A stretch of 64,000 nucleotides of DNA, taken from the NCBI RefSeq assembly GCF_000517085.1, contig NZ_KI912107.1:3903980-3967979 (forward strand). Reading direction: 5' to 3'. Below are positions 51,836-63,659 of the stretch, in pieces. A program made the translations under genes and the position numbers. The number at the start of each line of letters is the position of its first letter. Position 1 is the stretch's first letter. The notes below the pieces were generated by a model. It was not told the DNA's origin. It saw nothing but the letters and a program-made list of their open reading frames with translations, and did not search any database. This DNA comes from Saccharicrinis fermentans DSM 9555 = JCM 21142 (GTDB taxonomy: Bacteria; Bacteroidota; Bacteroidia; Bacteroidales; Marinilabiliaceae).

Positions 51836-53995
51836 CTATTCATCCTCATCCACGCCTGAAATATCCTTACCCAACTTATGCAAATAAGCAATTAAAGCAA
51901 CAACCTCCTTATTAGGCTCTACTTCTACACCGGAAGCTTTCAGTTCCTGCACAATTCCATTGGCCTGCTTCATATAATCATTAATGGCAAGTTCCTCAAA
52001 GCCATCCGCATAGGGAACACCCAATGTTTTCATCACTTTAATTTTCTTAGGAATCAGATCCAGTACCACATCATTTTCGGCTAACCACGGATAGGCTGGC
52101 ATGATGGTTTGTGGATTCATTTCCAGGGGTTTCATAAAGTGGTTATAATGCCATACCGCCGTTTTATAAGTAGTAGATCCACCAATAGACACGTCTCCCA
52201 AATATCCAGCCCTAGCCAAATCAGGCCCTGTCCTTCGCGAACCCCATTGAAAAGGATGATCATACACAAACTCTCCAATCTTGGAATACTCACCATAACG
52301 ATCCGTCTCCCATCTCAAAGGTCTTATTTGTTGCGAATGACAATTGTAACAACCATTAGATATATAAATATCTCTACCCGTCAACTCCAGAGGAGTATAT
52401 GGCTTTACAGCCTCTATTTTGGGAATATTGGATTCAACACTTAAGAGTGGTATTATCTCCACAGCACCACCAATAGCTACCGCAATAAATACGAAAATGG
52501 AGAATCGAACGCCACGCCGCTCCAGCCATCTATGCACTGTTTCCCCGGCCACGTTTCTCTTTTGAGGATTCACCAAAGCAGGAGCCTCTGAATCTTCGTT
52601 GGCTTCCATTTTTCCAATGGCCATGGTTTTGACAATATTAAATAAGAAAAGTAAGAAACCCGTAAAAAACAACACCCCGCCTACAACCCGAAATGCGTAC
52701 ATGGGTAAAATCTGAATGGTCGTTTCTAAAAAGTTAGGATAAGCAAGAGAACCTGTTGGGGTATACTCTTTGAGCATTAACCATTGCGTGATGGCAGCCC
52801 AATACAAAGGGATTGCGAACAACAAAATGCCTAATGTAGCTATCCAGAAGTGAGCATTGGCCAACTTACTAGAGTATAACTTTGTTTTAAATAATCGCGG
52901 CACGAGCCAATACATCATTCCAAAAATAAGACCTCCATTCCACCCCATTCCGGCAATATGAGTATGGGCCACGGTCCAATCTGTAAAGTGACTAATGGAG
53001 TTCACCGTTTTAAGCGCCATCATAGGACCTTCAAAGGTAGCCATACCATAGGCTATCAATGCCACCACCATAAACTTAAGGTCAGCGCGATCACGAACAG
53101 CATCCCACGCCCCACGAAGTGTCAACAAGCCATTGATCATACCTCCCCACGAAGGAGCAATCAACATGATTGAAAAGGTAACACCCAAAGCCTGAAGCCA
53201 GTCAGGCAATGCATTATACAACAAATGATGTGGTCCTGTCCACATATACAAAAATATCAGGGTCCAAAAATGTATTATGGACAATTGATAAGAGTAGATA
53301 GGTCTGTTAGAAGCCTTAGGAAGATAATAATACATCAAACCCAACCATGGTGTTGTTAGAAAAAAGGCCACCGCATTATGTCCATACCACCACTGCACCA
53401 AGGCATCCTGAGCACCAGCATATACCGGGTAACTCTTTAACAAAGAAACCGGTATTTCAACAGAATTGACAATATGCAAAACTGCCACCCCTAAGAAAGT
53501 AGCCAGATACCACCACACGGCAGCATAAATATGCTTAACCCTGCGTTTGATAATGGTTCCTATCATGTTCCATCCAAACAACACCCAAGAAACAGCAATT
53601 AATATATCAATGGGCCATTCCAGCTCGGCATACTCTTTACCTGTAGTAAAACCCAGGAGCAAGGTAACCGCCGCTAAAACGATAATCAGCTGCCAGCTCC
53701 AAAAATGAACCTTACTGATAATATCATTAAACAATCGTGCTTTCAGTACACGTTGCAGCGAATAATAAATACCTGCAAACATGGCATTACCTATAAAAGC
53801 AAATATCACTGCATTGGTATGCACGGGACGCACCCTTCCGAAAGATGTATACTCCAGTCCCAGATTAAAAGCAGGCCAGGCCAACTGTAAAGCAGCCAGC
53901 AAGCCAACTGTTAAAGCCACCACTCCCCACACTATTGTTGCAATCGTAAAATTTTTAACAATCGCGTTGTCGTATTTAAATTTTTGTATCTCCAT
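51836..53995 (-). CDS. ccoNO: Fused cbb3 oxidase subunits I and II (CcoN-CcoO)
   Basis: A 719-residue protein from the ATG at 53995; a TTG four codons upstream is less likely. Residues about 1-470 are the CcoN heme-copper core with heme and CuB ligands in RPVHTNAVIFAFIGNAMF, WWYGHNAVAFFLTTPWLG, TGPHHLLYNALPDW and TDWTVAHTHIAGMGW. After a linker and a helix, a CcoO-like cytochrome c domain has CYNCH followed by RPLRWETDRYGEYSKIGEF. The N-O fusion is known in Bacteroidota. Confidence 0.95.
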   Translation of the reverse strand: MEIQKFKYDNAIVKNFTIATIVWGVVALTVGLLAALQLAWPAFNLGLEYTSFGRVRPVHTNAVIFAFIGNAMFAGIYYSLQRVLKARLFNDIISKVHFWSWQLIIVLAAVTLLLGFTTGKEYAELEWPIDILIAVSWVLFGWNMIGTIIKRRVKHIYAAVWWYLATFLGVAVLHIVNSVEIPVSLLKSYPVYAGAQDALVQWWYGHNAVAFFLTTPWLGLMYYYLPKASNRPIYSYQLSIIHFWTLIFLYMWTGPHHLLYNALPDWLQALGVTFSIMLIAPSWGGMINGLLTLRGAWDAVRDRADLKFMVVALIAYGMATFEGPMMALKTVNSISHFTDWTVAHTHIAGMGWNGGLIFGMMYWLVPRLFKTKLYSSKLANAHFWIATLGILLFAIPLYWAAITQWLMLKEYTPTGSLAYPNFLETTIQILPMYAFRVVGGVLFFTGFLLFLFNIVKTMAIGKMEANEDSEAPALVNPQKRNVAGETVHRWLERRGVRFSIFVFIAVAIGGAVEIIPLLSVESNIPKIEAVKPYTPLELTGRDIYISNGCYNCHSQQIRPLRWETDRYGEYSKIGEFVYDHPFQWGSRRTGPDLARAGYLGDVSIGGSTTYKTAVWHYNHFMKPLEMNPQTIMPAYPWLAENDVVLDLIPKKIKVMKTLGVPYADGFEELAINDYMKQANGIVQELKASGVEVEPNKEVVALIAYLHKLGKDISGVDEDE

Positions 53996-54015
53996 TATTC
54001 TATGCAATAGGGTTA

Positions 54016-54213
54016 CTATTTATTCTTTTCAATGTCATTTTTCTCGTCACTGGTTTCATCGCTCCGGGAATGATCATCATCATCAAACAAAATACGAACC
54101 GATGGGGAGAACATATCTTCATACTGCCCCGACTTAACAGCCCACACAAACAGCCCTAAAAAAAACAGTGCTGCCAACAAGCTAACCCCGACCAATAAAT
54201 AAAGTATGTTCAT
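54016..54213 (-). CDS. ccoS: cbb3 oxidase assembly protein CcoS
   Basis: A 65-residue protein. One N-terminal helix (about 4-25) is followed by FVWAVKSGQYEDMFSPSVRI, the CcoS signature (GQ-[FY]-[DE]-D). Its acidic tail is typical. CcoS is needed for cofactor insertion into cbb3. It lies 20 bp upstream of ccoNO. Confidence 0.93.
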   Translation of the reverse strand: MNILYLLVGVSLLAALFFLGLFVWAVKSGQYEDMFSPSVRILFDDDDHSRSDETSDEKNDIEKNK

Positions 54214-54224
54214 GACTATTTATT

Positions 54225-55154
54225 TTAAATAACTTTTTCCTCTTCTGTAATGGGCTCTTTACCCAAAGCAAACACTTTTTTCATTATAAAGAGCACATAA
54301 AAAATAAAGAACCAAACCGTTACAACACCGCCTGTATACCCAACAATAATCCATATGGGTGCTTTCTTAACCGTATTCCACATGGCCCGATCCTTATTCA
54401 AAGGCGGCTTATTGGTCACCTGCGCAATAGGTAGCGTCACTTCAGTTTTCACATCCCCATACACCTCTGCCTGATCCACCTGGGCTACCAGCTGCACATT
54501 ACCCAATGAATCACCCGGCAAAGAATGATCCCATGAAAAATAAGACAAACCTTCTTTATTCGTGCGCTTAACATCTCCAATATTCAGATTTCCAAAATAT
54601 CTTTTGGCCATCAATTTTATGCCGACCCCACCGATGCTATTTTTTTCACCCTCTAAGGATCCGACTAACTGAACCGCCACAGCTTTCTTTGACTCATCAA
54701 AAGATATCCCCAATGACAAGACTGTTCCCGGAGCAATATTGGTTTCAATTTTTTCGGCTGTTTCCTGCACATAGACAGGATTAAAGCTGCGCAAATAAGC
54801 GATCACATTCCAAATGTCGGCCTTACTCAAGGCATTCTTAAATGAAGGCATGGTTACCCGCCCCTCACTTATCTTGTAAAAAAGAGCACCGTCGGTATTC
54901 ATCTGAAACTTTTCAGACGCAGGATCTCCAGGAGAAGGATTCAGCAAGGCATTAAAAGTACCCTCACCCGGCATCCCATGACAAGCGGTACACTTAACAG
55001 AAAACACTTCTTTACCAGAAGCTCTCATGGCATCGGTAAACTCAACCAGACTTAACTTTTCTTTTTGCTCCTGCGGAACTAGCCAAGAGCTTTGCGCTGA
55101 TGATTTTAACACAGCACAAACACAAATAACTACGATTAAATAATACTTGTTCAT
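54225..55154 (-). CDS. Membrane-anchored monoheme cytochrome c, putative quinol-oxidase module subunit
   Basis: A 309-residue protein from the ATG at 55154. A start 13 codons earlier would overlap nrfD; the later one opens directly into a signal sequence. A heme c motif CTACH (Cys55, Cys58, His59) and a downstream Met (GRVTMPSFKNAL) form the cytochrome domain (about 35-130). A beta-rich periplasmic domain (about 140-255) and a C-terminal helix (about 268-292) follow. It lies 10 bp after the NrfD gene and just ahead of ccoS, so it may carry electrons from the Fe-S/NrfD module to cbb3. That role is inferred. Confidence 0.8.
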   Translation of the reverse strand: MNKYYLIVVICVCAVLKSSAQSSWLVPQEQKEKLSLVEFTDAMRASGKEVFSVKCTACHGMPGEGTFNALLNPSPGDPASEKFQMNTDGALFYKISEGRVTMPSFKNALSKADIWNVIAYLRSFNPVYVQETAEKIETNIAPGTVLSLGISFDESKKAVAVQLVGSLEGEKNSIGGVGIKLMAKRYFGNLNIGDVKRTNKEGLSYFSWDHSLPGDSLGNVQLVAQVDQAEVYGDVKTEVTLPIAQVTNKPPLNKDRAMWNTVKKAPIWIIVGYTGGVVTVWFFIFYVLFIMKKVFALGKEPITEEEKVI

Positions 55155-55164
55155 TGTACTGCTA

Positions 55165-56502
55165 TTAAATGATTTTAGACTTTGTTTCTTCATCTTCTTC
55201 GGCCATTTCCCAAATTGGGATAACAGGAAAGAGCTTTGCCAGTACCGAAATAATCATGATACCCATGATGATAGAACCTATTGTTACAGCACTTTCAATA
55301 ACAGTTGGTTGATATACAACCCACTCATTGGGCAAATTTTGCACAGGTAAAAACGGATGCTCCATAGTAGGAATCACAATAATATAACGTTTGAACCAGG
55401 CCCCTACCAACACAAACAAAGAAATAACGAACAAGGGTACCGGTTTACGGAAAGGCTTCCACAAAAGCACAATCATAGGAACAATCAACCCACAGATTTG
55501 ACAAAACCAGAACATCAAAGCGTGCTTACCCAAGAATAACTCATGAATATGAATCGCATCAAACTCCTTCATTTTATAGGCAGGCACCACAAACTCGTTC
55601 AGGTTAAAATAAAAATATACCACACATACAAACTCCAATAACTTCCCCATTTTATCAAATAAAGGCTCATCAAGATAACTTCTCAACTTATAGTTATTCC
55701 TAAAAAAGAAAACAGCGATGATAACTGCTCCCATACCCGTTACAAATGCCCCTGTTAAAAAATAAGGACCAAAGATGGTACTATCCCAGCCACTACGCGA
55801 ATTTACCGCCAACAACCATGAGGTAACCGTATGAATAGCAAAGGCTGTGGGTATCACTAAAATAATCAGTAAACGGGTGGCCTTAAAAAGTAATTGGTAC
55901 TGTTTGGGATGGTGGGTCCAATTAAAGGATAGAATTTTATATAATTTCAACATCCATTGAGGAGCATTTTTCATTCTCCCACGCGCAATAGCTAAATCAG
56001 GAATCAATGGAAGCATATACAACAAGGTACTGATGACCAAATAGGTTGTCACTACTGTTACATCCCAAAGAATAGGTGACTGCACCCTTCCGTATAAAAA
56101 CACATGGTGCAACCTTTCTGGCCGCCCCATATCAGAAACAATCACCAGTCCGGCTACGGCAGCAAAAGCCACTGCTATCATTTCGGCTATTCGGGTAATG
56201 GGCTTGATCCACGTATACCCCAGCAAACCTATCACACCACTAATAAGCATACCTACCAAAGCGGTGGCTACAAAAAACACAAAGTTGGCAATGTACATCC
56301 CCCAACTTACCATATCGCGCATACCCGTTACGATCAATCCCTCTCGGTACTGAATAACATAGGCATAGATACAGGCCATTAAGGCCACAGTCAAAAATAA
56401 CATCCAATTGATGTACGCATTATTAAAACCAACCGGCTTAAGCACATCTTCTGCTATTTTATCAAGCTTTTCTTTATTAATCTTAATATTATGTTCGGAC
56501 AT
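55165..56502 (-). CDS. nrfD: NrfD/PsrC-like quinol-interacting membrane subunit
   Basis: A 445-residue polytopic protein with about ten helices. NrfD-family features include VSWGMYIANFVFFVATALVG (about 65-84), a GLVIVSDMGRPERLHHVFLYGRV segment, an early SPILWDVTVVTTYL, and HTVTSWLLAVNSRSGWDSTI. Members of the family bind menaquinol and pass electrons to Fe-S partners. Here it sits between a ferredoxin-like and a cytochrome c gene with no catalytic molybdenum subunit. This subset resembles ActC of Alternative Complex III. Confidence 0.88.
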   Translation of the reverse strand: MSEHNIKINKEKLDKIAEDVLKPVGFNNAYINWMLFLTVALMACIYAYVIQYREGLIVTGMRDMVSWGMYIANFVFFVATALVGMLISGVIGLLGYTWIKPITRIAEMIAVAFAAVAGLVIVSDMGRPERLHHVFLYGRVQSPILWDVTVVTTYLVISTLLYMLPLIPDLAIARGRMKNAPQWMLKLYKILSFNWTHHPKQYQLLFKATRLLIILVIPTAFAIHTVTSWLLAVNSRSGWDSTIFGPYFLTGAFVTGMGAVIIAVFFFRNNYKLRSYLDEPLFDKMGKLLEFVCVVYFYFNLNEFVVPAYKMKEFDAIHIHELFLGKHALMFWFCQICGLIVPMIVLLWKPFRKPVPLFVISLFVLVGAWFKRYIIVIPTMEHPFLPVQNLPNEWVVYQPTVIESAVTIGSIIMGIMIISVLAKLFPVIPIWEMAEEDEETKSKII

Positions 56503-56518
56503 ATTCTGGGTTTAATGA

Positions 56519-57469
56519 TTAGCTATGATGATCCGGTTTCTCTGGGGCTTCAAAAACCCTATCCTTAGGAGGTAAGTAATATACACGCGGTTTCGTACCC
56601 AGCTCCTCCATCAACCTGTACCCTGCATTTTTCTCAAGCAACTCACTTAGGACTACTGTTTCACGCGTTGTTCCGTTGGTTACAGCGTTTTCATTTTCAT
56701 CACCAAAATAAAACACCTCGTTGGGACACGAACGCACGCAGGTAGGCAGATCGCCTCCACGAAGACAGTCTGCACTAAACAAACATTTTGTAATGGTTCC
56801 TTTTTTCTGCGGAATATTTGCTTCCACATCATACTCCATGGGCTGCGCTTCATAAAGCTGCGCTTGAAAAGGCTCTTCCCAGTTAAATACACGAACAGAA
56901 TACGGACAGGCTGCCATGCAAAACCTACATCCAATACAACGCTCATTATCAATAAGCACAATACCATCCTGACGCTTAAAGGTTGCATCCACAGGGCAAA
57001 CAGATACACATGGCGGATTATCACAATGCATACAAGGCTTTGGCATATTATAGGGAGCCGATTGCGGATTATCCTGCATCACCAAAGTATTGATATGATA
57101 TTGGTAAGGATGTAAGTGGTGATGTTCCTGACACCCCTTAATACACTCCCGGGCATTCCTGCATTTGGCCAAGTCAATTACCATCACCCACCTCTTGCCT
57201 GCGATCCCTAACCTTCCACGCGACTGTAAAGCCTCCGTATCCAGCTTTACTTCTTTAACCTGCGATTTAGGTATTTCAACTAATTTGTTGTCGGATGTCA
57301 TCACCTTCACATACTCTTCTTCGGGAGTACGCTGAGATGTGAAGCCAGAAGCAACTGCCCCTGTTGTGGCAGCAGCTCCTATTAACCCAAGCTTACGCAT
57401 AAAATCCCTTCTGGAATTTTTACCGGTTGATTTGGCCGGCTCATTTTTTTTCAACTGATCAGAATTCAT
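56519..57469 (-). CDS. Tat-exported polyferredoxin (ActB/PsrB-like Fe-S subunit)
   Basis: A 316-residue protein with a twin-arginine signal (SRRDFMRKLG, residues 19-28) and four Fe-S motifs. Motif 1 is Cys103, Ala106, Cys109, Cys113: the second Cys is replaced by Ala, which would favour a 3Fe-4S cluster. Motif 2 is CMHCDNPPCVSVCP and motif 3 is CIGCRFCMAACP (both complete). Motif 4 is Cys229, Cys235, Cys244, Cys248 with Ser232 where Cys is usual. It is the first gene of the module, 17 bp upstream of nrfD. ActB-type proteins also combine one 3Fe-4S with several 4Fe-4S clusters. Confidence 0.85.
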   Translation of the reverse strand: MNSDQLKKNEPAKSTGKNSRRDFMRKLGLIGAAATTGAVASGFTSQRTPEEEYVKVMTSDNKLVEIPKSQVKEVKLDTEALQSRGRLGIAGKRWVMVIDLAKCRNARECIKGCQEHHHLHPYQYHINTLVMQDNPQSAPYNMPKPCMHCDNPPCVSVCPVDATFKRQDGIVLIDNERCIGCRFCMAACPYSVRVFNWEEPFQAQLYEAQPMEYDVEANIPQKKGTITKCLFSADCLRGGDLPTCVRSCPNEVFYFGDENENAVTNGTTRETVVLSELLEKNAGYRLMEELGTKPRVYYLPPKDRVFEAPEKPDHHS

Positions 57470-57654
57470 GATATAAGTTTATGTTTTAAGTTACTACCAC
57501 CTATTTAAGTATTGCAATGCCGAATATATAAATTTCAATTTTTAAAATAGTTCAATATTTTTTAACAATTCACTATAGACATCAATTTATACCTAATCTG
57601 AATAAACATAAGGTCCTTTGCAATGATAAATTAACATTAATTAGCCAACTTATA
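57470..57654. other. Divergent control region between the Fe-S gene and the his leader
   Basis: AT-rich DNA between two divergent transcription units. I see no clear leftward -7 box. A weak TTGCAATGATAA-like region near 57619 is the only candidate. No gene. Confidence 0.4.
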
Positions 57655-57685
57655 TTTGGATTTTAAAATATTACATTTAATTTTG
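57655..57685 (+). promoter_or_regulatory. Promoter of the histidine operon
   Basis: TTTG at 57655-57658, exactly 19 nt, then TAATTTTG at 57678-57685: a near-perfect Bacteroidota housekeeping promoter. Transcription should begin near 57690, 16 nt before the leader peptide ATG. Confidence 0.78.
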
Positions 57686-57705
57686 TATCGATTCAATAAA
57701 AAACA

Positions 57706-57753
57706 ATGATAAAATTCACACATCATCACGGGCATCATTTTAACCTACCATAG
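57706..57753 (+). CDS. hisL: Histidine operon leader peptide
   Basis: A 15-codon frame, MIKFTHHHGHHFNLP, with five His codons in seven positions. It lies just after a strong promoter and 35 bp before a perfect terminator hairpin, all ahead of hisG. This is the signature of ribosome-mediated attenuation: stalling at His codons when charged tRNA-His is scarce would permit read-through. Too short for ORF callers. Confidence 0.9.
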   Translation: MIKFTHHHGHHFNLP

Positions 57754-57825
57754 GTGGTCCGGGATTGTTGTGATAAATAATAATATAAGAGGGCTTACCG
57801 CATGGGAAGCCCTCTTTTTTTTTGA
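57740..57825 (+). terminator. Attenuator of the histidine operon
   Basis: The terminator is a perfect 9-bp stem, AGAGGGCTT (57788-57796) with AAGCCCTCT (57807-57815), 10-nt loop, then nine T. A small hairpin ACCTA-CCA-TAGGT at the end of the leader peptide (57742-57754) could be a pause signal. I did not find a clear antiterminator by eye; a fold including GGTGGTCCGGGATTG (57754-57768) is the place to look. Confidence 0.85.
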
Positions 57826-57909
57826 TAATAATAATTGTGTTCTAGATCTGAGCTGACTTATACCCCAACATGATGTCTCACATCTATTATCTAAAAAGAC
57901 TAAAATAAA

Positions 57910-58767
57910 ATGGAGAAATTAAGAATTGCCTTACAGAAAAAAGGAAGATTACACGACGATTCGATGAAGCTTTTAAAAGAAGCTGGCATAAAATTCAACA
58001 TAGGAAGTGGAAAACTAGTGGCACAATCGCCTAACTTTCCCATAGAAGTTTTGTTTTTGCGTGATGATGATATTCCTCAAACCATCGCAGATAAAGTAGC
58101 GGACATTGGTGTGGTAGGTGAAAATGAAGTAGAAGAAAAAGATTTCAAACTAACGATTGCCAAAAGACTGGGCTTTAGTAAGTGTAGGATATCATTGGCC
58201 ATCCCCAAAGCCGATGAGTACCCTGGACTGGAATATTTTCAGGGTAAAAAAGTAGCAACTTCTTACCCGGTTATTCTAAAAAAATACTTTGCCGAAAAAA
58301 ATATCAGTGCCAACATACACGAGATAGCAGGATCAGTGGAAATAGCTCCTGGCATCGGCTTAGCCGACGGTATCTTTGACATAGTAAGCTCAGGCAGTAC
58401 ATTGGTAGCGAATAGATTAAAAGAGGTAGAGGTAGTCATGCAGTCCGAAGCACTTCTGGTACAAGCTGAAGACATGTCCGACGAAAAAAAGGCATTGCTT
58501 CAGGAGCTACTATTCCGTATCAATGCGGTAATGGCAGCTAGCTCCAACAAATACATCCTATTAAATGCACCCAACGACAAGGTGGATGAAATTGTTAAGG
58601 TACTCCCCGGAATGAAGAGTCCCACAGTATTACCATTGGCCCAAGAGGGATGGAGCTCTATTCACTCTGTGATTTCCGAAAAACAATTTTGGGAGATCAT
58701 TGGTAAGTTAAAGGACAATGGTGCAGAGGGTATCTTAACTTTTCCCATTGAAAAAATGATACTGTAA
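57910..58767 (+). CDS. hisG: ATP phosphoribosyltransferase (long form)
   Basis: A 285-residue first enzyme of histidine synthesis (ATP plus PRPP). The catalytic domains contain LRIALQKKGRLHDDSMKLLK (about 4-23) and the PRPP loop region GLADGIFDIVSSGSTLVAN. The C-terminal ACT-like HisG_C domain (about 210-285) that mediates His feedback is present, so this is the long HisGL form without need for HisZ. It is preceded by the leader attenuator. Confidence 0.97.
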   Translation: MEKLRIALQKKGRLHDDSMKLLKEAGIKFNIGSGKLVAQSPNFPIEVLFLRDDDIPQTIADKVADIGVVGENEVEEKDFKLTIAKRLGFSKCRISLAIPKADEYPGLEYFQGKKVATSYPVILKKYFAEKNISANIHEIAGSVEIAPGIGLADGIFDIVSSGSTLVANRLKEVEVVMQSEALLVQAEDMSDEKKALLQELLFRINAVMAASSNKYILLNAPNDKVDEIVKVLPGMKSPTVLPLAQEGWSSIHSVISEKQFWEIIGKLKDNGAEGILTFPIEKMIL

Positions 58768-58840: not shown

Positions 58841-60124
58841 ATGCAGGTATTTGAATATCCACAAAAGAGCGATTGGGCGCAGCTACTTCAACGTCCCGAG
58901 AATGATTTGAGCACCTTGTTCCAGACCGTTCAAGGCATTCTGACCGACATCAAAGAGAACGGCGAAAAAGCAGCCAAAGCATACTCTGAGAAATTTGACG
59001 GCTTTGCTGCCGAAAACCTTTTAGTATCTCAAAAAGAAACTGAGGAAGCATGCTTGCAGGTTTCCTCCAAATTAAAGCAAGCCATCCATACAGCCAAGCT
59101 AAATATCGAAAAATTTCACCAAGCACAAATATCACCCGAAAAGGTGGTAGAGACAATGCCAGGCGTTATTTGCCGTCAAAAAAGTGTTGCCATTGAGAAG
59201 GTAGGTCTATATGTCCCCGGGGGCACTGCTCCACTCTTCTCTACAGTATTAATGCTGGCACTTCCTGCCATCATTGCCGGATGTAAAGAAATCGTCCTTT
59301 GTACGCCTCCCAACAAAGAAGGTAAAATTCACCCTGCCATATTATTTACCGCCTCATTGATTGGAGTCACCAACATATTTAAACTAGGTGGTGTACAAGC
59401 CATCGGAGCAATGGCTTACGGTACCGAGAGCATTCCTAAAGTGGATAAAATTTTTGGCCCAGGAAACAGCTACGTAACCGCAGCCAAACAACTAGTTAGC
59501 TTAAAAGATGTGGCCATAGACATGCCCGCAGGTCCTTCTGAAGTAGAAGTACTGGCTGACGAATCAGCCAATGCTGCTTTTGTTGCCTCTGACCTTCTGA
59601 GTCAAGCTGAACATGGCGTAGATAGTCAAGTCATCCTGATCACCAACAGCCCACAACTGATTCCTCAAATTCAAATAGAACTGGACAATCAACTTAAAGA
59701 ATTATCCAGAAAGGAAATTGCAGAAAAAGCCTTACAAAACAGTCGCATCATACTATTATCCAACCAACAAGAGATGATTGAAATGACCAATATGTACGCT
59801 CCTGAGCACCTGATAATAGCCATGCGTGACGACGATGAAGTAGCCAATAAAATCACCAATGCAGGTTCGGTATTCATAGGCAATTATACGCCCGAGAGTG
59901 CAGGCGACTACGCATCTGGCACCAACCACACACTGCCAACACACGGTTACGCAAAAGCATATAGTGGGGTTAACCTCGATAGCTACATCAAAAAAATAAC
60001 ATTTCAGAAAATCACACCCCAAGGATTAAAAAACATCGGCCCAGCCATTGAAGAAATGGCAGCTACAGAGCAATTGGATGCCCATAAAAATGCTGTCACC
60101 ATCCGATTAAACACTTTGAAATAA
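58841..60124 (+). CDS. hisD: Histidinol dehydrogenase
   Basis: A 427-residue zinc enzyme that oxidises histidinol to histidine in two NAD-dependent steps. Signatures: GLYVPGGTAPLFSTVLMLAL (about 125-144), NIFKLGGVQAIGAMAYGTES, FGPGNSYVTAAKQLV, MPAGPSEVEVLADESAN and SQAEHGVDSQV (zinc ligands Gln/His). The end contains NHTLPTHGYAKAYSGV. Normal length. Confidence 0.97.
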   Translation: MQVFEYPQKSDWAQLLQRPENDLSTLFQTVQGILTDIKENGEKAAKAYSEKFDGFAAENLLVSQKETEEACLQVSSKLKQAIHTAKLNIEKFHQAQISPEKVVETMPGVICRQKSVAIEKVGLYVPGGTAPLFSTVLMLALPAIIAGCKEIVLCTPPNKEGKIHPAILFTASLIGVTNIFKLGGVQAIGAMAYGTESIPKVDKIFGPGNSYVTAAKQLVSLKDVAIDMPAGPSEVEVLADESANAAFVASDLLSQAEHGVDSQVILITNSPQLIPQIQIELDNQLKELSRKEIAEKALQNSRIILLSNQQEMIEMTNMYAPEHLIIAMRDDDEVANKITNAGSVFIGNYTPESAGDYASGTNHTLPTHGYAKAYSGVNLDSYIKKITFQKITPQGLKNIGPAIEEMAATEQLDAHKNAVTIRLNTLK

Positions 60125-60160
60125 CATATAAATGTCAGCTATTTGCTAATTTTCGAACAC

Positions 60161-61201
60161 ATGAAAACAATAGAACAATTAATCCGCCCCAATATAAAGT
60201 CCCTTCGTCCATATTCATCAGCCAGGGATGAATTTTCAGGCGAACAAGCCATCTTTTTGGATGCCAACGAAAACCCTTTTAACAAACCTTACAACCGCTA
60301 TCCGGATCCTTATCAACGCAAGCTCAAGAAAAAAATAGGAGAGCTTAAAGACATTGAAGCCGAACACATCTTCTTGGGCAATGGAAGCGATGAAGCCATA
60401 GACCTTACATTCAGGTCCTTTTGTGAACCAGGAATCGACAATGTTATATCCATAGACCCAACCTATGGCATGTACCAGGTAGCTGCCGACATCAATAACA
60501 TTGAGATACGCAAAGTTAAGCTCACCAAAGAATTCCAACTGGATGTAGATGGCCTACTGGCTGCCGCAGATCAAAATTCAAAAATATTATTTATCTGTTC
60601 TCCCAATAATCCCACTGGCAATTGTTTTCCCGCAACAGACATCCTCAGTCTATTGGATAAATTTAATGGGATAGTGGTACTAGACGAAGCCTACATTGAC
60701 TTTGCGCCAGAAAAGAGTTTTCTACCACATTTAGCGAAATATCCAAACCTCATCATCCTACAAACATTCAGCAAGGCGTGGGGCATGGCCGGAATCCGCT
60801 TAGGCATGGCATTCACATCTCCAGAAATCATCCACATATTTAACCATATCAAATACCCATACAACATTAATATACTCACACAACAAACTGCACTACAATT
60901 ACTAGAGAAAGCGGATGATAAAAACACATGGGTTCAGGAACTACTAAGACAAAAAGAACAAATGTCCTTAAAGATGAAGCAATATCCCTTTATTCAAAAG
61001 ATATTTCCCTCTGACGCCAATTACCTTTTAATAAAAACAACAGCCCCCAAAGAGATATACAACTTTTTAGTAGACCAGGGTGTTATTGTCAGGGATCGCT
61101 CAACTGTTTCACTTTGCGAAGGCTGTTTAAGGGTAACCATTGGATCAAAAGAAGAAAACAATGCACTGTATGCTGCACTGGATCAATATCAAAATAAATA
61201 A
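60161..61201 (+). CDS. hisC: Histidinol-phosphate aminotransferase
   Basis: A 346-residue PLP fold-type I aminotransferase starting at the ATG at 60161; a start six codons earlier is possible. Motifs: LDANENPFNKPYNRYPDPYQ (about 35-54), FLGNGSDEAIDLTFRSF, CSPNNPTGNCF, VVLDEAYIDFAP and the PLP Lys in LQTFSKAWGMAGIRLG. It follows hisD by 36 bp. Confidence 0.97.
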   Translation: MKTIEQLIRPNIKSLRPYSSARDEFSGEQAIFLDANENPFNKPYNRYPDPYQRKLKKKIGELKDIEAEHIFLGNGSDEAIDLTFRSFCEPGIDNVISIDPTYGMYQVAADINNIEIRKVKLTKEFQLDVDGLLAAADQNSKILFICSPNNPTGNCFPATDILSLLDKFNGIVVLDEAYIDFAPEKSFLPHLAKYPNLIILQTFSKAWGMAGIRLGMAFTSPEIIHIFNHIKYPYNINILTQQTALQLLEKADDKNTWVQELLRQKEQMSLKMKQYPFIQKIFPSDANYLLIKTTAPKEIYNFLVDQGVIVRDRSTVSLCEGCLRVTIGSKEENNALYAALDQYQNK

Positions 61202-61223
61202 CGATTTTAATACTTCAAAATAA

Positions 61224-62351
61224 ATGCAACGAGTACTTTTTATTGACCGCGACGGAACAATCATAGAAGAACCACCAACCGATTTTCAAGTGGATAGCCT
61301 TGAAAAACTAGCCTTCTATCCTAAGGTGATTACCAACCTGCACAAAATTGCCAATGACCTAGATTTTGAACTAGCTATGGTCACCAATCAAGATGGACTG
61401 GGCACTGCTTCGTTCCCTGAAAACACCTTTTGGCCAGCGCAAAATAAAATGATGAACACCCTCAAGGGAGAAGGCATTCTATTTGACGAGGTTTTCATAG
61501 ATCCCTCATTACCGGAAGAAAATTCTCCAAGAAGGAAGCCCGGCACAGCCATGCTTACCAAATACTTTGATGAGTCTTACGACATGGCCAACTCATATGT
61601 TATTGGGGACCGAATGACAGATGTTCTACTAGCCAAAAACATGGGTTGTAAAGCTATTTTTCTAAAGAATCACGATAATGCGCACAAAGAAATTGAATCA
61701 CAAGGGCTAAAAGACATCTGCGCACTATGTACCACTAACTGGGACGAGATTACCCAATTTTTATTTGCAAAAGAAAGAACAGCCCATGTAAGCCGTAAAA
61801 CATCAGAAACAGAAATTGATATTCAGCTCAATCTTGATGGATCAGGCCAATGCAACATATCAACTGGCTTACATTTTTTTGACCATATGTTAGAACAAAT
61901 TGGCAAGCATTCTGGCTGCGATTTAAGCATAAAAGTCAATGGCGATTTGCACGTAGATGAGCACCACACAATTGAAGATACAGCCCTGGCTTTAGGTCAA
62001 GCTTTTAAAGAAGCGCTTGGAGACAAAAGAGGAATAGAACGCTATGGCTATTGTCTGCCAATGGATGACTGCTTGGCTTTGGTGACACTTGATTTTGGAG
62101 GACGACCATGGCTGGTATGGGAGGCCGATTTTAAACGAGAAAAAGTAGGTGACATGCCAAGCGAAATGTTTTTGCATTTTTTTAAGAGCTTTTCAGATGC
62201 CTCTTTAAGCAATCTTCAAATACAAGCCAAAGGAGACAACGAACATCATAAAATAGAAGGAATCTTTAAAGCCCTGGCCAGAGCATTGAAAATGGCCATT
62301 AAAAAAGATGTCTTTAACAATACCCTACCCAGCACTAAGGGAGCACTTTAA
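61224..62351 (+). CDS. hisB: Bifunctional histidinol-phosphatase/imidazoleglycerol-phosphate dehydratase
   Basis: A 375-residue fusion. The N-terminal HAD phosphatase (about 1-165) starts [14 protein letters not shown] with the nucleophilic Asp and has [14 protein letters not shown] and [14 protein letters not shown]. The C-terminal IGPD domain (about 180-375) has the metal-binding motifs [31 protein letters not shown] and [17 protein letters not shown]. The fused form also occurs in enterobacteria. It is the last his gene here; hisH, hisA, hisF and hisI are not in the window. Confidence 0.96.
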
Positions 62352-62438: not shown

Positions 62439-63659
62439 ATGGCAAGTATAGGTGACAAGTCAAATTTTCCGCTGTATAGCACAGGTTTGATGCCACAGGA
62501 AGAAATGTTAGAAGTAAAAAAGACGGGTAAAAAACTCACCATAGGGATGCCTAAGGAGAAATCTAAATTTGAAAATCGTCTTGCGCTGACCCCCCAAGGA
62601 ATTGAGTTGTTGGTAGAAAATGGTCATACCGTATTATTTGAGTCCGGAGCTGGTCAGGCAGCGAACTTATCCGATCAGGACTTTGCGGAATGTGGAGCAT
62701 GCATTGTCAAAAACAATAGCGAAATATTCAAAGCAGAAATAGTACTTAAAATATCTCCCTTTACTGATGAGGAGCTAGACTTGTTATCTCCTGGGCAAAC
62801 GATTATTTCTCTGGTTCAGCTCCATCAACAATCACGCGAGCTCATCAAAAAAATGTTGAGTAAAAAAGTAAACGCCATTGCTTTTGAACTCATCAAAGAC
62901 AACAACGGGTACTATCCGGTAACCCGCAGCATGAGCGAGATAGAAGGTGCAGCATCCATTATGATTGCCAGCGAATACCTAAGCAAAGCCCATAACGGGA
63001 AAGGCGTATTATTGGGAGGCATTACAGGGGTATCTCCTGCCGAAGTAGTTATTTTAGGCGCTGGTACCGCGGGCGAGAGTGCCGCACGGGCTGCCTTGGG
63101 TCTCGGTGCTACTGTGAAAGTTTTCGACAATTCCTTTAAGAACTTAAGGGAATTACAACTTCATATAGGGCAACGTATTTTTACCTCGGTATTATACCCC
63201 AAAGCACTTACCAAAGCCTTAAAGTCGGCCGACGCCGTCATTGGAAACCTTCGTTATCTGCAGTCGGGCCTAAGTTATATGGTAACCGAAGACCAGGTAT
63301 CAAAGATGAAACAAGGTTCTGTACTAATTGACCTTAGCATGGGACAAGGAGGATGTTTTGAATCATCCATCTGCACTGACTTCGCTCACCCTGTATTTAT
63401 CAAGCATGGAGTCATCCACTATTGCGTACCCAACGTGGCCTCTCATGTGGCTCGAACAGCAACCATCGCACTAAGTAATATCTTTGCTCCTATGATATTA
63501 CAAATGGCCGAAGCCGGAAATATCAATAATATCATCAAAGAAAATGCGGGCTTTAGTCATGGTATTTACGTGTACAAAGGCATTCTAACCAATCATTATA
63601 TTGGCGAAACATTTTCACTACCATCTAAGGATATTGGCCTATTAATGGCTGCTTTTTAA
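62439..63659 (+). CDS. Alanine dehydrogenase-like NAD(P)-dependent enzyme
   Basis: A 406-residue protein of the AlaDH/PNT family. The N-terminal domain has MPKEKSKFENRLALTPQGIE (about 39-58) and GHTVLFESGAGQAANLSD. The Rossmann motif is VVILGAGTAGESAARAALGL, and MSEIEGAASIMIASEYLSK is a family signature. A short N-terminal extension (about 35 residues) precedes the usual start. Reaction: L-alanine with NAD to pyruvate and ammonium, by family assignment. It is 87 bp downstream of hisB but has no role in His synthesis. Confidence 0.85.
   Translation: MASIGDKSNFPLYSTGLMPQEEMLEVKKTGKKLTIGMPKEKSKFENRLALTPQGIELLVENGHTVLFESGAGQAANLSDQDFAECGACIVKNNSEIFKAEIVLKISPFTDEELDLLSPGQTIISLVQLHQQSRELIKKMLSKKVNAIAFELIKDNNGYYPVTRSMSEIEGAASIMIASEYLSKAHNGKGVLLGGITGVSPAEVVILGAGTAGESAARAALGLGATVKVFDNSFKNLRELQLHIGQRIFTSVLYPKALTKALKSADAVIGNLRYLQSGLSYMVTEDQVSKMKQGSVLIDLSMGQGGCFESSICTDFAHPVFIKHGVIHYCVPNVASHVARTATIALSNIFAPMILQMAEAGNINNIIKENAGFSHGIYVYKGILTNHYIGETFSLPSKDIGLLMAAF

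Follow-up and report, generated by a model that had tools for sequence, protein, structure and literature searches.

Leader-peptide attenuation needs a ribosome that follows closely behind RNA polymerase, and translation initiation in Bacteroidota proceeds largely without Shine-Dalgarno sequences. For histidine operons, the corresponding Rfam family is presumably RF00514 (His_leader). In Escherichia coli and Salmonella, the his attenuator (hisL) lies upstream of hisG and consists of a short leader with a run of His codons, followed by mutually exclusive antiterminator and terminator structures (generally described; summarised in part in PMC9413887). The authors of a 2010 survey of premature terminators then knew leader peptides only from Proteobacteria and Actinobacteria, to which their survey adds Firmicutes (PMC2965389, accessible part). 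A 2022 study adds further Firmicutes his leaders (PMC9413887), and a study of his genes in the superphylum of the present organism describes attenuation for enterobacteria only, at least in its accessible text (PMC8305728).

Closer relatives of the present system come from the same phylum. The Bacteroid-trp RNA (RF01692) is a tryptophan leader of Bacteroidetes (PMC2864571, PMC6414381, as far as accessible). In Flavobacterium psychrophilum, clues for leader-peptide attenuation before amino-acid operons, including pheA, have been reported, together with a conserved 5' element before hisG in Flavobacteriaceae that has no Rfam hits; that hisG element belongs to another family, and the accessible part of the report gives no leader peptide, antiterminator or covariation for hisG (PMC9723704). 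A fuller account of his attenuation in the phylum was not found in the open-access literature, and the comparative attenuation survey of Lopatovskaya et al. (2010) may already list such leaders.

The window is the whole 64,000-nt stretch of Saccharicrinis fermentans DNA analysed here, and its hisG is preceded by every part of such an attenuator (Table 1). The initial annotation had described a TTTG-19 nt-TAATTTTG promoter, a leader with five His codons and a perfect 9-bp stem with nine T before hisG; direct reading finds each of them in place, and TIGR00070 identifies hisG. The promoter has its -33 box TTTG at 57655-57658 and its -7 box TAATTTTG at 57678-57685, separated by a 19-nt spacer. The leader, MIKFTHHHGHHFNLP, opens with an ATG at 57706 in an A-rich context, in which direct reading sees no Shine-Dalgarno sequence, and closes with TAG at 57751-57753; 5 of its 15 codons are His (codons 6-8, 10 and 11), the cluster of key codons that marks a his-type attenuator. 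Between leader and first gene stands an intrinsic terminator, as in that type, whose perfect 9-bp stem (57788-57796 with 57807-57815) encloses a 10-nt loop and runs into nine T at 57815-57823. A generic terminator scan passes over it because the scanner accepts loops of up to 8 nt.

Table 1. Features of the window his element (window positions) and of related leaders elsewhere
Feature	Location	Strand	Basis
Bacteroidota-type promoter, TTTG-N19-TAATTTTG	57655..57685	+	sequence read directly
Leader peptide gene, 15 codons, MIKFTHHHGHHFNLP	57706..57753	+	direct read, conservation in relatives
Antiterminator 5' strand, GGTGGTCC	57753..57760	+	locus-level pairing, aligned helix
Inner hairpin extending the antiterminator, ATTGTTGT / ATAATAAT	57764..57784	+	predicted fold of 57752-57799
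Shared strand GGGCTTACC (antiterminator 3' strand and terminator 5' arm)	57791..57799	+	63-unit alignment
Intrinsic terminator, hairpin 57787-57816 with nine T 57815-57823	57787..57823	+	fold and aligned helix
hisG, first controlled gene	57910..58767	+	TIGR00070, TIGR03455
hisD, hisC, bifunctional hisB, next operon genes	58841..62351	+	TIGR00069, TIGR01141, NF003937
Tandem loci L008, L009, L010, L013-L020, L022, L025	e.g. L015:2215-2460		upstream of hisG
Trp leader MTKIMNNTWWWHWLFSKEKR before trpE	own genome G000:C3:3814167-3814261	-	covariance-model match
Phe leader MTHFAFFYSFYFYFFGFCNQKEVGI before pheA	L213 upstream of 1492		upstream region read
Ile/Leu/Val leader MNYILSLILINVILLVITKRT before ilvD	L212 upstream of 1447		upstream region read
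Candidate Thr/Ile-rich leader MVYKLTHITSNITSAITPWGV before thrA	L215 upstream of 1498

On both strands of the window, the leader is the sole ATG-started ORF of 8-30 codons with at least four His within six codons. When the threshold is lowered to at least three His, two ORFs appear on the + strand, and only the leader has a terminator within 75 nt. The 133-nt leader region has a better fold than any of 200 dinucleotide shuffles (z -3.7). Inspection by eye of the sequence from the terminator to hisG gives no support for a remnant second attenuator there.

The element shares with hisL its short His-run leader, its exclusive pairings and its place before hisG, but it has no visible Shine-Dalgarno sequence, its single antiterminator overlaps the leader stop, and it precedes hisGDCB only. 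Rfam His_leader gives no match in the window at the gathering score, nor on 57600-57920 at E up to 10. Bacteroid-trp has the phylum and the logic in common with the element, whereas its codons are Trp and its target is trpE; RF01692 likewise leaves the window his leader unmatched on 57600-57920 at E up to 10.

By HisG, the closest named relative is Labilibacter marinus (91% identity), and the window groups with Marinilabiliaceae. After hisB follows an alanine-dehydrogenase-like gene (62439-63659, + strand; TIGR00518 at 288.8 of 391.85 bits, below the curated cut-off). On the other side lies a divergent respiratory cluster (51836-57469, - strand) with a fused cbb3-type cytochrome c oxidase subunit I/II (NF011053) and with membrane and iron-sulfur subunits that resemble DsrP and DsrO, below their curated cut-offs; one ORF of this cluster has no NCBIfam match at E 1e-20.

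The first base of GGTGGTCC is also the last of the leader stop codon, and this strand pairs with the 5' arm of the terminator. Two mutually exclusive folds therefore share GGGCTTACC, and the terminator is the stronger of them, at -18.6 kcal/mol (z -4.95; 0 of 200 shuffles as good) against -12.7 kcal/mol for the antiterminator with its inner hairpin (57752-57799; 6 of 200 shuffles fold as well). The antiterminator is weaker in the window than in most relatives. Its duplex is imperfect (GGTGGTCC, compared with GGTGGGCC in near relatives) and, taken alone, is matched by 27 of 100 shuffles, which places it among the weaker of 72 units; a longer segment that includes more of the leader (57725-57799) is not special, with 123 of 200 shuffles folding as well. 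When each locus is scored separately, no more than 5 of 100 dinucleotide shuffles equal the antiterminator duplex in 57 of the 72 units.

These units come from the hisG loci of relatives. The best 80 of 184 relatives from a HisG search, together with the window, make 81 loci, in which a unit is defined as a His-rich ORF followed by a terminator within 75 nt. At least one unit is present in 59 of the 81 loci, and there are 72 units in total, four of them doubtful. On this comparison, the His-rich leader and terminator before the window hisG are not a chance arrangement. The initial annotation had proposed just such a search, and the lack of conserved His codons or of a conserved terminator in related hisG leaders, which it held up against its own reading, is not what is found: both are conserved. 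Of the 59 loci, 54 have a TAnnTTTG box in the 70 nt preceding their first leader ATG, compared with 3.6 expected from mononucleotide shuffles.

The other 22 loci lack a unit. L004 carries a weaker leader, MKNFTHLYGHHFIYCNR, outside the search pattern. In 17 loci, the last 80 nt contain no TAnnTTTG box and a long open frame, of 116-229 aa, stops 9-116 nt short of hisG, which is thus probably operon-internal; L073 combines a long frame with a box. The box stands 29-37 nt before hisG without a leader in L042, L046 and L068, so some relatives do without the attenuator. In these three loci, and in L073, it seems to have been lost or never to have been present.

For the distance statistics and the reference list, L039 (a chance ORF) and L051, L076 and L077 (poor antiterminators) were set aside, which leaves 68 units, and 63 of these were aligned (left out were L044, L045, L054, L079 and the second unit of L018). 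The terminator 5' arm common to the aligned leaders is GGCTTRCC, with GCTT invariant, and close to the leader stop codon lies another sequence that pairs with it: GGTAGGC, GGTGGGC or GGATGAGC. Of the 504 cells of the antiterminator helix, 93.5% are paired and 13 are changed on both sides; the pairing, the two-sided cells and the covariation score are each reached by 0 of 500 shuffles, kinship not being corrected for. Shifting the helix by 1-3 columns lowers pairing to 27-53%. Two of five measures lie within the shuffles, namely the number of pairs with two-sided change (194/500) and further pair types (418/500), and 12 of the 13 two-sided cells are a G-C to A-U change at one base pair, which may reflect few events. 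In the terminator helix, 97.0% of the cells are paired and 18 are two-sided. Its four pairs with two-sided change are reached by 1 of 500 shuffles (relatedness not corrected), and its further pair types are not above shuffles (113/500). Six window-type terminators appear off by one pair in the alignment, which accounts for 6 unpaired cells at two columns. The antiterminator that the initial annotation had wanted sought is thus present in the window, where GGTGGTCC pairs with the terminator 5' arm, and in relatives its pairing is kept through base changes.

Spacing from the key codons is narrow. Counted from the first base of the last His codon, GGTGGTCC starts at 17 nt in the window; among the 68 units the antiterminator starts at a median of 17 nt (interquartile 16-18, range 3-24, SD 3.7), while its start relative to the stop codon is more variable (interquartile -4 to +3, SD 4.9). 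The spacing is looser in the phylum sample (median 16, range 4-25, 46 units). With the footprint of a ribosome, stalling at the last His codon would just free the antiterminator strand, and a ribosome at the stop codon would cover it. By its geometry, the spacing is that which ribosome stalling would require, with the strand masked or exposed as in a his-type attenuator.

The window element is thus very probably a ribosome-mediated (leader-peptide) transcription attenuator of hisGDCB, and the initial reading of classical his attenuation is borne out by the conserved His codons and terminator and by the antiterminator of its relatives. From these parts we infer leader translation, stalling, termination and read-through, with ribosome and polymerase coupled. 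When charged tRNA-His is plentiful, the ribosome would reach the stop codon and cover GGTGGTCC; GGGCTTACC would then be free for the stronger terminator, and transcription would end before hisG. Under a shortage of charged tRNA-His, it would stall at the His codons, leaving GGTGGTCC exposed to pair with the emerging GGGCTTACC, so that no terminator forms and hisGDCB is transcribed. Such a mechanism would depend on ribosome-polymerase coupling. The element is an ordinary example of an attenuator type that is already known.

The same genome holds further leaders of this kind. The second-best match of the His-leader model in it (42.7 bits) is a Trp leader, MTKIMNNTWWWHWLFSKEKR, before trpE (identified by PF04715 and PF00425, with TIGR00564 below its cut-off), and this leader falls just below the gathering score of Bacteroid-trp RF01692 (45.6 bits, gathering 49). 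The Phe leader MTHFAFFYSFYFYFFGFCNQKEVGI before pheA and the Ile/Leu/Val leader MNYILSLILINVILLVITKRT before ilvD are each followed by a strong terminator and have a matching antiterminator strand. The Thr/Ile-rich leader MVYKLTHITSNITSAITPWGV before thrA, the gene for a bifunctional aspartate kinase/homoserine dehydrogenase (NF006959), is kept as a candidate only, because its region shows no convincing terminator. An exact TAnnTTTG box lies upstream of four of the five leaders (his, trp, phe, ilv and thr), the exception being trp. Within one genome, codon content thus follows the pathway: His, Trp, Phe and Ile/Leu/Val.

The his pathway itself is split. A hisH-hisA-hisF cluster lies elsewhere in the genome (G000:C3:3803032-3804443, - strand), with hisH just upstream, and the sequence ahead of hisH yielded no His-rich ORF; attenuation would therefore act on hisGDCB only. 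As a separate observation, two genomes of the genus (L197, G000:C3:2898431; L204, G346:C10) share a conserved 18-codon ORF, MGYSSxxCELIxYMDSVK, that immediately precedes a terminator. The ORF has no obvious pathway and is possibly a small protein gene.

Across the phylum sample, hisG is present in 171 of 198 genomes, and upstream regions were examined for 80 of the 171, roughly one for each genus at the listed places, with 11 more from the same class. With ATG starts only, the first search pattern found an ORF plus terminator in 43 of the 80 regions. With ATG, GTG or TTG starts, a His-rich short ORF occurs in the last 300 nt of 62 of the 80 regions, compared with 2 of 80 on the opposite strand. 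A terminator accompanies 46 of the 62, and in 36 of these 46 the antiterminator is matched by at most 5 of 100 shuffles. The putative His-codon switch is therefore common in relatives across the phylum. Some families, f5 and f16 among them, have different stems (in f5, CUCARGCG pairs with CGUUUGAG); the design is thus retained although its sequence changes. The 15 regions of f13, f14, f15, f17, f18, f19, f25, f28 and f35 yielded no His-rich ORF, which is also missing in one of two regions of f10 and two of three of f29.

A covariance model (R1) built from the His leaders was used for genome searches. It gives matches in 58 of 60 family genomes (E <= 0.1), 105 of 149 genomes of the order (E <= 0.05) and 24 of 40 class genomes (E <= 0.01), tallies that overstate the his element because weak matches (about 30-37 bits) are often plain terminators, and some places are matched on both strands.

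Two variants stand out among these leaders. In 13 of the 81 loci, from Carboxylicivirga and near relatives by name, two complete His units stand in series before hisG. The second start codon follows the first terminator at a distance of only 15-38 nt, and in all 13 loci the stretch from the first stop codon to the second ATG is free of TAnnTTTG boxes; both units are therefore very likely on one transcript, and the pair is very likely a serial attenuator for the same signal. The trait clusters on a 36-row HisG tree (4 changes, compared with 10.8 in shuffles), which is compatible with a single origin. The Salmonella mgtCBR mRNA likewise carries two leader ORFs and serial attenuators; its attenuators sense different signals (ATP and proline), whereas both leaders are His-rich in the 13 relatives (PMC3641672, accessible part).

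The other variant is seen in f23 (L129-L137). His leaders occur in the last 200 nt before hisG in 9 of 9 regions, with 4 to 10 His codons, frequent repeated HHxxHH patterns and, in several, a GTG start; in eight of the nine, no terminator is detectable. The C content of their spacers is 0.23-0.29 and the G content 0.06-0.11; such a C-rich, G-poor composition is typical of Rho loading. For this comparison of spacer composition, regions were sorted by hand into those with and those without a terminator, and L082, L107, L108 and L134, in which a weak terminator is scored, were put in the second group. The f23 leaders are possibly a Rho-dependent or translational variant, which is offered as a lead. 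Some regions of f2, f9, f10 and f11 also have no clear terminator, and several have a hairpin over the leader stop codon. A print record of a same-amino-acid tandem, or of a terminator-poor C-rich His leader, was not found in the open-access literature.

Several other explanations of the window element can be set against this material. The hairpin might be a mere insulating terminator for hisG and the His-rich ORF a product of chance. The terminator is indeed the stronger fold and alone would serve as an insulator, but the gene upstream is divergent (56519-57469, - strand) and the promoter directly precedes the leader, the antiterminator pairing is kept in the alignment, and in the phylum sample His-rich ORFs far outnumber those on the opposite strand; an insulator is very unlikely. 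Control at the level of translation, in which leader hairpins would alter access to the hisG start instead of termination, draws some weight from the His leaders without a detectable terminator in other families, since the phylum may have such a variant. In the window, however, the nine-T stem ends 86 nt before the hisG start and, on direct reading, excludes it, which makes this explanation scarcely credible here.

Sensing by another route, through an aptamer for a small molecule, a T-box or a protein that binds the RNA, would leave the ORF in a secondary role and would fit the partly conserved spacer between the two antiterminator strands, which is TTGTTGTG-like in many aligned rows. Against it, no Rfam family reaches its gathering score within the window, and none of the 13 sub-threshold matches on 57600-57920 (E up to 10) is a T-box or riboswitch; the best of them, Thr_leader (30.3 bits, cut-off 55), is itself a leader-peptide family. 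The distance from stop codon to terminator varies from 15 to 49 nt among units, and leader codons match the pathway within one genome. Such a sensor is highly improbable, and leader-peptide attenuation of hisGDCB is the preferred reading of the window element.

The wider picture is drawn more cautiously. The comparison tips somewhat in favour of coupling-dependent leader-peptide attenuation being an old, phylum-wide system of Bacteroidota that works without Shine-Dalgarno initiation and serves several pathways per genome (his, trp, phe and ilv). In such a system the geometry would be kept, at about 17 nt after the last key codon, while the stems turn over, and it would have given rise to the Carboxylicivirga tandem and to terminator-poor, perhaps Rho-dependent variants. 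The full attenuator anatomy and narrow spacing in many families imply that transcription and translation are coupled in Bacteroidota. The His leaders would therefore offer natural reporters for testing coupling in this phylum, and they point to a likely function for a family of 10-25-codon ORFs that lie below the size of routine gene calling.
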